Assembly: GCA_946538835.1 (NCBI GenBank)
Contig: CAMNGZ010000004.1
Coordinates: forward strand, 1-37,566
Length of the DNA stretch: 37,566 nt
Reading direction: 5' to 3'
From: an uncultured Clostridium sp.
GTDB lineage: Bacteria; Bacillota_I; Bacilli_A; Acholeplasmatales; Anaeroplasmataceae
Translations under genes and position numbers: made by a program
Part shown: piece after piece, positions 25,626 to 28,285 of the stretch
Layout: the number at the start of each line of letters is the position of its first letter
Position numbering within the stretch: the first letter of the stretch is position 1
Notes under the pieces: model-generated
The model's database searches: none
The model's input: only the letters and a program-made list of their open reading frames with translations
What the model was told of the DNA's origin: nothing

Positions 25626-26198
25626 ATGATAGAAAAGTTTATAGACTATAAAAAATGCATACCAGACGAATACGTTAGTGACGTCTTTCATATAGATTAT
25701 AGTAGATTATACGCTCTTGGAAAAAGAGTTATATTTTTTGACCTAGATAATACATTGATTTCTTATAAAGAAACTGTGCCAGGCCAAAATATAAAAAATT
25801 TAATAGATTCTTTACAGTCAATTGGATTCGAAGTGATGGTTGTTTCTAACAGTCCTAAAAATAGAGTTAGAAAAGCTAGCAATTATTTAAATATTAAGCA
25901 TGTTAATTTAGCCTTGAAGCCTTTAAAATTTGGATTTAAGAGAGCATTAAGAAAATGCGAGAAAAAATATACATATGACCAAGTTCTTGAGGTAGGAGAT
26001 CAGCTTTTAACAGATGTATATGGTTCTCGTAGAATGAATTTTTACACTATTTTGGTCAGAGCTATTGATCATAAAACTGAAGTACGTGTTACAAAATTAA
26101 ATCGTATTAGAGAAAGAAAGATTATTAACAAAATTAAAAATAAGGACTTTGAAAGTTATATTACAAAACTTCAAAAATACGAAAGTGAGAATTTATGA
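25626..26198 (+). CDS. yqeG: YqeG family HAD IIIA-type phosphatase
   Basis: The 190-residue protein is a HAD-family phosphatase of the YqeG type. The nucleophile motif is FFDLDNTL (Asp39, Asp41), motif II is VVSNSPKNR, the Lys motif is in LKPLKFGF, and GDQLLTDVYGSRRMNFYTILV is motif IV. Some family members act on phosphatidylglycerophosphate, but the substrate here is unknown. GGTGAT precedes the ATG. It ends in TGA within an ATGA overlap with yqeH, as in Bacillus. Confidence 0.93.
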   Translation: MIEKFIDYKKCIPDEYVSDVFHIDYSRLYALGKRVIFFDLDNTLISYKETVPGQNIKNLIDSLQSIGFEVMVVSNSPKNRVRKASNYLNIKHVNLALKPLKFGFKRALRKCEKKYTYDQVLEVGDQLLTDVYGSRRMNFYTILVRAIDHKTEVRVTKLNRIRERKIINKIKNKDFESYITKLQKYESENL

Positions 26199-27307
26199 AA
26201 AAATTAATTTGTAAAGGATGCGGAGCTGAATTACAAACAACTGATGATTCTAAAAAAGGTTTTATTGCTAAAATTGATGAAACAAAAGAAGTATTATATT
26301 GCAAAAGATGTTATCGCTTGATGCATTATAATGAATTCCCAAAGATTTTAGCAACTAATGAAGAATATGAAAATGTTGTTGATGATTTACTAACAAAAGA
26401 TGGATTAATTGTGTTTGTTGTTGATGTATTTGACTTTACAGGTACATTTATTCCAAAAATTATGGATAAATTGCGTAATAAGAATGTCATTCTTGTAGCA
26501 AATAAATTAGATTTATTGCCAAAGAGTGCCAATGTTTCTAAAATTGTTGATTGGTTAACTTATATGGCAAATCGTTATTTCTTTAAGGTAGATGCAATTA
26601 ATGTAGTATCAAGTAAAAAAGGATATTACATTGATGATTTGATGAATACTATTAATTTCTTACGTAATGGTAAAGATGTGTACTTTATGGGTGTTGCAAA
26701 TGTAGGTAAATCTAGTTTGATTAATGCTATTTTAAAACGTTGTTCGAATAAAACAACAGATGTTATTGCGACAAGCCCAATTCCAGGTACTACTTTATCA
26801 AGTATAAATATTAAATTCTTTGATGATTTTAAATCTATTATTGATACACCAGGACTTATTAATCAAAATAATGCTCAAAGCGTTTTAAATGAACAAAGCT
26901 ATAGGGCACTTATTCCTACAAAAGAAATAAAACCAATTACTTATCAAATTGAACCAGGAAATACTGTCTTACTTGGTGCTATAGCCAGTGTAGCACTTGA
27001 GAGTGCTAAAGAAAATATTTCATTCACTTGTTATCAAAGTGAAAATGTTACTGTTCATAGAAGAAAGAACATTGATACAATTGAGTTTATGAAACGTCAT
27101 AAAGGTGAATTATTAACGCCTCCATGTAAAGGCGATTTAAGTGAACTTGATTATGTCACAAAAGAGTTTAAATTACTTCCTAAGCAAGATGTTGTTATTT
27201 CAGGTCTAGGATTTATCACAACAAATAAAGCTTGTAATGTTAAAGTTACTCTTTTAAAAGATTTGGATGTGTTTGTAAGAAATGGAATTTTCTCAATCAA
27301 AGATTAA
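26195..27307 (+). CDS. yqeH: Ribosome biogenesis GTPase YqeH
   Basis: YqeH is a circularly permuted GTPase needed for 30S subunit assembly. The 370-residue product starts with a zinc finger of two Cys pairs (CKGC and CKRC, residues about 4-37). G4 is NKLDLLP, placed before G1 GVANVGKSSLIN (residues 166-177), and G3 is DTPGLIN. The C-terminal domain has GLGFITTNKACNVKV. It overlaps yqeG (ATGA) and its end overlaps the next gene by 26 nt. Bacillus has aroE, yhbY and nadD between yqeH and yqeK; here they are missing. Confidence 0.96.
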   Translation: MKKLICKGCGAELQTTDDSKKGFIAKIDETKEVLYCKRCYRLMHYNEFPKILATNEEYENVVDDLLTKDGLIVFVVDVFDFTGTFIPKIMDKLRNKNVILVANKLDLLPKSANVSKIVDWLTYMANRYFFKVDAINVVSSKKGYYIDDLMNTINFLRNGKDVYFMGVANVGKSSLINAILKRCSNKTTDVIATSPIPGTTLSSINIKFFDDFKSIIDTPGLINQNNAQSVLNEQSYRALIPTKEIKPITYQIEPGNTVLLGAIASVALESAKENISFTCYQSENVTVHRRKNIDTIEFMKRHKGELLTPPCKGDLSELDYVTKEFKLLPKQDVVISGLGFITTNKACNVKVTLLKDLDVFVRNGIFSIKD

Positions 27308-28211
27308 TGAAGTTAAAGAGATAGTCAAAAATAAATACCAAACTTTATATCCTGATAAGATGGATAGATATTACCATATATTAGGAGTAGCTAAAATGGC
27401 TAAATATTTAGCTAATATTTATAATGTTGATGAATCTCGTGCTGAAATTTGTGGTTTAGTTCATGATTTTTATAAATATGAATCAATTGATGAAATGAAG
27501 ACTTTAATTGATCCAAAAGATTTAAATGAATGTATAAAATATCCTGTTTTATTTCATTCATATGCTTCATCAGAAGCTTTAAAGAAAGTATTTAATATTG
27601 ATGATTTAGAAATGAAATCTGCCATTAGAAATCATGTGTTTGGCCACATAAATCAAACAAAATTAGAAGAAATAGTTTTAATTAGTGATTACACTGAAGA
27701 AACTAGACAATACCCTGATTGTATAAAGGTTAGAAAGACATTGTTAGATGGTAATTTAAATAAAGCTATTTATGATTCAACCTTAAATACAATTAATTTT
27801 ATTAAAAAGAAAAATATAGAACCTCATCCTATGCAGGTTTTAGTATTAAATGAATATCGGAGGAAATTAATAATGAGTAAATTAGAAGATGTATTGAACG
27901 GATTAAAGAGAATTAATCCTGAAAATGTAGTTGCTTATGATTCAAATTTATCTAGCCCATTTTTTGATTTTATTGTTGTTGCAACAGTAGGATCAGTAAG
28001 ACAAGCTAACCAAGCACTTTCATATATTAAAGAAGAATTAGCTAAAGAAAATTTCGATATCAAATCATATGAAGGCTTTGATTCTGAATGGGTTTTAATT
28101 GATGGTTATGACTTCTTAATTCACATTATGACTGAATCAGAAAGAGAAAGAATAAATATTGACAAGTTGTATATGAATTTAGATAAGTTAGATATTGAAA
28201 AATTATTATAG
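27282..28211 (+). CDS. YqeK (HD-domain Ap4A hydrolase) joined in frame to RsfS (ribosomal silencing factor)
   Basis: The frame encodes 309 residues covering two normally separate proteins. Residues 1 to about 195 are YqeK, which cleaves diadenosine tetraphosphate. Its metal-site pattern is His32, His61-Asp62 (LVHDFYKYE), His92, His118 and Asp136 (ISDYTEE). Residues 198-309 are RsfS/YqeL, which binds uL14 and blocks 50S-30S joining, with DSNLSSPFFDFIVVATV, YEGFDSEWVLIDGYDFLIHIM and a divergent end. No stop separates them. A strong CGGAGGA is translated as part of the junction and sits 9 nt before an in-frame ATG at 27873. Free RsfS (112 residues) is therefore likely also made. The upstream start is the ATG at 27282 inside yqeH, with a weak site. 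Confidence 0.88.
   Translation: MEFSQSKINEVKEIVKNKYQTLYPDKMDRYYHILGVAKMAKYLANIYNVDESRAEICGLVHDFYKYESIDEMKTLIDPKDLNECIKYPVLFHSYASSEALKKVFNIDDLEMKSAIRNHVFGHINQTKLEEIVLISDYTEETRQYPDCIKVRKTLLDGNLNKAIYDSTLNTINFIKKKNIEPHPMQVLVLNEYRRKLIMSKLEDVLNGLKRINPENVVAYDSNLSSPFFDFIVVATVGSVRQANQALSYIKEELAKENFDIKSYEGFDSEWVLIDGYDFLIHIMTESERERINIDKLYMNLDKLDIEKLL
27858..27875 (+). promoter_or_regulatory. rsfS: Internal ribosome binding site and start for RsfS inside the yqeK-rsfS frame
   Basis: CGGAGGA (27858-27864) followed after 9 nt by ATG (27873-27875) in the same frame as yqeK. The ATG falls exactly where stand-alone RsfS proteins begin (MSKLEDVLNGL). Confidence 0.75.
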
Positions 28212-28230
28212 TTTAATACATTTATTATAT

Positions 28231-28274
28231 AAAAAGGAACTTTCATAAATATTGTGTTGTTAGTTCCTTTTTTT
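28231..28274 (+). terminator. Rho-independent terminator of the yqeG operon
   Basis: Stem AAAAAGGAACT/AGTTCCTTTTT with a long 20-nt loop, then T. The -35 of the next promoter lies in its loop and right arm. Confidence 0.8.
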
Positions 28275-28285
28275 AATAGTATAAT
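28257..28285 (+). promoter_or_regulatory. Probable promoter of the two-gene ABC operon
   Basis: TTGTTA (28257-28262), 17 nt, TATAAT (28280-28285), overlapping the preceding terminator. Confidence 0.65.

Follow-up and report, generated by a model that had tools for sequence, protein, structure and literature searches.

The locus considered here, in a gut/rumen bacterium, encodes the HD hydrolase YqeK and the ribosomal silencing factor RsfS in one open reading frame with no stop codon between them. It raises the question of whether the two proteins have indeed become one, and whether the same gene also yields RsfS in free form. We know of no explanation for the adjacency of yqeK and rsfS that is seen in so many Firmicutes. 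The window is the whole stretch of 37,566 nucleotides that was analysed, and its relevant features, by position in it, are as follows:

25626..26198, plus strand: yqeG-like HAD gene, first of the run (open reading frame list; named from gene order and sequence)
26195..27307, plus strand: yqeH GTPase gene, overlapping the yqeK start by 26 nt (open reading frame list; named from gene order and sequence)
27282..28211, plus strand: fused yqeK-rsfS gene, 309 aa (no interruption between the ATG at 27282 and a stop codon whose last base is 28211; family matches)
27282..27851, plus strand: YqeK HD-hydrolase domain, residues 1-190 (TIGR00488)
27828..27908, plus strand: continuous junction helix, residues 183-209 (DSSP on the AlphaFold2 model)
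27858..27863, plus strand: CGG AGG codon pair, which builds the core of the internal Shine-Dalgarno sequence (codon count)
27859..27864, plus strand: internal Shine-Dalgarno (SD) sequence GGAGGA (duplex energy and synonymous shuffle, see below)
27873..27875, plus strand: internal ATG, putative start of free RsfS of 112 aa (sequence; alignment)
27873..28208, plus strand: RsfS domain (TIGR00090)
27878..27880, plus strand: TAA at the earlier end of yqeK, shifted out of frame by one base (comparison with relatives)
28229..28275, plus strand: terminator-like inverted repeat with a long loop and a T run, 3' of the fusion gene (RNA fold)

The fused gene and its putative internal start site

The YqeK model TIGR00488, for symmetrical Ap4A hydrolases, scores 97.4 bits on residues 28-190 (curated cut-off 70.15) and the RsfS model TIGR00090 scores 59.9 bits on residues 202-297 (curated cut-off 56.9), and the Pfam HD and RsfS domains concur with these calls. 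The sequence-only reading had proposed a fusion of YqeK and RsfS in one frame, and this is borne out by an uninterrupted frame in which both families pass their cut-offs. No second RsfS was found in the source genome, a metagenome-assembled genome (MAG) that is 63% complete.

At the junction, TAT CGG AGG AAA TTA ATA ATG AGT is read as YRRKLIMS. As had been predicted, this YRRKLIM junction holds an in-frame ribosome-binding site and start codon, with GGAGGA lying 8 nt from the ATG at 27873. When relatives with separate genes are aligned, this ATG falls where their RsfS begins. The internal site is stronger than chance would account for: it pairs with the anti-SD at -9.5 kcal/mol, as against -4.0 kcal/mol for the yqeK start; these energies use the standard anti-SD, as the 3' end of the 16S rRNA was not found in the source MAG. 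Downstream of the gene, the segment 28216-28290 folds at -17.1 kcal/mol into the terminator-like hairpin, which a pattern scan missed on account of its long loop.

Predicted structure and functional residues

An AlphaFold2 model of the fusion (mean pLDDT 94.7, pTM 0.87) has halves that match solved structures of YqeK and RsfS (for RsfS, 6sj6 and 2o5a). The YqeK catalytic residues H32, H61, D62, H92, H118 and D136 are identical across a comparison set of 21 fused proteins and 34 separate relatives. In the Streptococcus pyogenes YqeK, the metal and substrate residues are H29 and D59 of the HD pair, H91, H117 and D135 (PMC11857287), and this set is present in the window protein. It also has K65, in place of which some fused relatives have R or H.

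On the RsfS side, the residues of Staphylococcus aureus RsfS that contact uL14, E70, W77 and D81, correspond to E264, W270 and D274, and most interface residues are conserved among relatives. The position equivalent to S. aureus Tyr98 is not Tyr in the window protein: the PDB alignment places Ile291 there (codon 28152-28154) and rules out Y297, which had been a candidate. Across relatives, fused or not, this position is F, L, I, V, M or Y, and mostly F in the separate ones. An Ala mutant at Tyr98 lost ~80% of activity in S. aureus (PMC9503621), and with a different residue at this position the strength of anti-association is not to be assumed. The domains probably each retain their own activity, judging from these residues, with dinucleotide hydrolysis by the one and 50S binding at uL14 by the other.

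Probable origin of the fusion

In unfused relatives, yqeK runs into rsfS. Measured from the second rsfS codon, its stop lies anywhere from 9 nt upstream to 20 nt downstream, and mostly in another frame; within the family of the window species the range is from 7 nt upstream to 20 nt downstream. Ancestrally, therefore, the ribosome-binding site sits within yqeK or at its end, and a single indel, or the loss of a stop, suffices to fuse the genes. The sequence-only reading had regarded GGAGGA as the old rsfS ribosome-binding site left behind by the fusion; the site is there, but it is not simply a leftover, since yqeK already overlaps rsfS in unfused relatives. At the junction a single A separates the window from its sister species. 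The genes are separate in G001, of the same genus, with a junction one base longer than that of the window; likewise, TAA 27878-27880 coincides with the yqeK stop in G001, G010 and G014, all with junctions one base longer. With the closest species separate and the old stop surviving, the fusion in the window species is recent.

We consider it likely that an overlapping pair was fused by the loss of one A and that the gene now yields both YqeK-RsfS and free RsfS. At the start, the rsfS ribosome-binding site would have lain within the last codons of yqeK, and loss of one A in the overlap would have joined both frames into a single protein whose last YqeK helix continues into the first helix of RsfS, a course of events that comparison of relatives and the confident model support. 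Initiation at 27282 would produce the fusion, whereas ribosomes loading at GGAGGA and starting at the ATG at 27873 would produce free RsfS. With a weak ribosome-binding site for yqeK and a strong internal one, free RsfS may form a large share of the output.

A one-base difference also invites the suspicion that a deletion error in the assembly conceals an ordinary overlapping yqeK-rsfS pair: adding one A to the AAA run at 27864-27866 would recreate the sister arrangement exactly, with the stop at 27878-27880. Such an error is very improbable. For about 20 other genes of the window, the alignments to orthologues in G004 and G021 are unbroken, and none is frameshifted; moreover, in G004 the frames are arranged as in the window but the old stop is gone, which means that the fusion there cannot be an error of this kind, and the number of fused genomes (see below) weighs in the same direction. 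We accordingly set aside both assembly error as the main explanation and the sequencing error, hiding a stop or frameshift, that had been raised against the fusion from the outset.

Spread of the fusion among relatives

A search for YqeK-RsfS fusions in relatives, proposed along with the original reading, found them in 36 genomes, all of the same class. In the family of the window species, 20 of the 51 genomes with a match are fused, including G060, where the gene lies at a contig edge. Two other families of the order contribute four (G025 and G029 in f2; G081 and G088 in f3) and three other families of the class contribute 12 (G306 in f16, G408 in f9 and ten in f19). Thus, the worry that this assembly alone is fused does not hold, even though its closest relative has separate genes. 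No match outside the class was found among 392 sampled genomes of the phylum at a strict threshold, which divergent cases may escape. An alignment-based contig search (14 loci) gave Acholeplasmatales and Anaeroplasmataceae MAGs as the named relatives.

Each fused genome has exactly one RsfS match. In a maximum-likelihood tree of YqeK plus RsfS from 55 pairs, the fused genomes fall in ten groups; the fused state needs 10 changes on this tree, at least 9 of them forced by well-supported (starred) branches. Some of these changes may be re-separations and others new fusions. The window gene is a real and recent instance of this recurrent fusion, most likely with two products. Because the fusion recurs and each such genome has a single RsfS, it becomes directly testable whether YqeK and RsfS are linked physically or functionally.

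Family f19 (L109-L119, L127) mixes fused and separate yqeK-rsfS, and most of its fused members are without an internal start, in view of which the fusion there may be older. In genus g24 of family f3, with genomes of 0.3-0.9 Mb, each genome has at most one match; the matches listed are YqeK-like, and none of them is to RsfS.

Signs of maintenance of the internal start

The CGG-AGG pair occurs once in 125,571 codons (429 kb of genome), at the junction, and CGG accounts for 11 of the 3879 Arg codons in the same 429 kb (0.28%), over which 17 of 2380 internal ATGs have an equally strong SD. When synonymous codons were redrawn with the amino acids fixed and the codon usage of the window, an SD this strong arose at p=0.0012. 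The sister species and the relatives in genus g3 have GAAAGG where the window has CGGAGG; the SD sequence has changed and the site has stayed. A constraint on the protein YRRKLIM alone is ruled out for the window by the codon test, but could account for the site in genomes with p above 0.05, such as those of f2 genus g8, where Gly-Gly largely dictates GGA GGA. By these codon-level signs, the internal site in the window looks to be under maintenance.

Genus g4 is an older fused genus that has retained the internal site in 7/8 species. All 8 of its species are fused, with protein identities of 46-75% (one close pair at 92%) and synonymous codons near saturation. The third-base G that makes GGA is kept in 7/8 species, where the background frequency is 0.16 (p about 1e-4 when the close pair is treated as one), and among 15 comparable columns the two codons behind AAGGAG take first and joint second place for third-base G.

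Across the 36 fused genomes, the internal site is strong in 16, middling in 6 and weak or absent in 14, and the start codon at the junction is missing altogether in 11. The internal start is thus retained in some lineages and dispensable in others, some of which have lost it after fusing; as the 11 genomes without it have a single RsfS, the fusion alone can serve as RsfS. To the earlier question of whether the internal AGGAGG-ATG is conserved, the answer differs by lineage. A gene with two products is likely for the window on the codon-level signs but not a general rule, given the 14 genomes with a weak site or none, 11 of them lacking the start codon. Internal starts ranging from strong to absent provide a natural series in which fused and free protein would differ in ratio.

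Alternative explanations and possible meaning

If the fusion is real, the internal ribosome-binding site might still be a remnant of the recently separate gene, with the fusion as the sole RsfS. The 11 fused genomes without a junction start codon, and the three more in which the site is weak, each have a single RsfS and show that such a state is viable; furthermore, the window fusion is only one base away from the separate arrangement of its sister, and with the closest species separate and the old stop surviving, the site may have lacked time to decay. On the other hand, the window's SD sequence has been altered with its strong core kept, using in CGG AGG one of the rarest choices available, and g4 holds the site despite its near-saturated synonymous change. 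We therefore regard a remnant as rather unlikely and prefer a gene with two products. A further view, to which we give an even chance, is that overlapping neighbours in small AT-rich genomes fuse by drift through cheap indels, with no regulatory meaning; it addresses the purpose of the fusion and is compatible with the anatomy preferred here. Two further in-frame fusions in this genus, NadD-NadE and DUF368-peptidase M20, likewise carry an SD and an ATG where the genes join, and the latter combines unrelated functions. They suggest that neighbouring genes fuse readily in general, which weakens the case for a reason special to YqeK-RsfS. Against drift stand the repeated fusion of the same pair and its presence in ten species sampled from f19, most of which lack the internal start. 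This is a hint that the joined protein has some use or is at any rate stable, but not proof of selection.

Besides hydrolysing Ap4A, YqeK acts on NaAD analogues and on 8-oxo-GTP (PMC9426524); the targets of RsfS include late 50S precursors in addition to mature subunits (PMC13246957). The proposed link between Ap4A breakdown and silencing is thus possible as a conjecture. In a physically coupled, repeatedly fused module, the Ap4A (dinucleotide) hydrolase would sit on the 50S subunit or on precursors of it, and alarmone level would be read jointly with silencing; the internal start would tune coupled against free RsfS, with other lineages committed to the fusion. We consider such a module distinctly improbable.

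Relation to known systems

We found no description of a YqeK-RsfS fusion in the literature searched, in which a paper covering both proteins reports their synteny and no fusion. For the Firmicute nadD-yqeK-rsfS cluster, where yqeK and rsfS (also named yqeL) are separate, synteny has been described (PMC7549365); the proteins, their order and the conserved neighbours are alike, whereas here there is one reading frame and nadD lies elsewhere (contig C27), fused to nadE in the source genus. As in the mycoplasma NadD-YqeK (JCVISYN3A_0380, PMC9426524), YqeK of a Mollicute-type genome is in frame with a protein whose gene is a conserved neighbour, but the partner here is RsfS, encoded downstream, and YqeK is at the N terminus. 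The NadD-YqeK model PRK07152 scores 90.5 on the fused protein, below its cut-off of 315, and a Pfam/TIGR domain scan found no NadD domain in it. Relative to RsfS of S. aureus and Escherichia coli on the 50S subunit (PMC7125091, PMC9503621, PMC13246957), the fold and the interface residues E70, W77 and D81 are shared, and the N-terminal YqeK and the Ile at the Tyr98 position set the window protein apart.

With an in-frame SD and start codon that carry signs of nucleotide-level constraint, the gene has the features of an internal-initiation gene. It recalls the cyanobacterial CcmM (M58/M35, PMC8580825), in which one frame has an enzyme-like domain first and an internal ribosome-binding site for the C-terminal part; the proteins are unrelated, and the short product is established for CcmM whereas free RsfS is predicted here. 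Domain fusions in such genomes can hide second products overlooked by annotation.

As to the other fusions in the genus, the one joining NadD to the glutamine-dependent NAD synthetase NadE is found at L128:1404-3842 (G000, contig C27) and L129:1353-3791 (G001, contig C105), and its junction retains AGGAGA and an ATG. The DUF368 undecaprenyl-phosphate translocase-like protein and peptidase M20 are joined at L146:3867-6215 on the minus strand (G000), with AAGGAGG-ATG at the junction; they are fused also in G001 (L151) and separate in G002 (L152).
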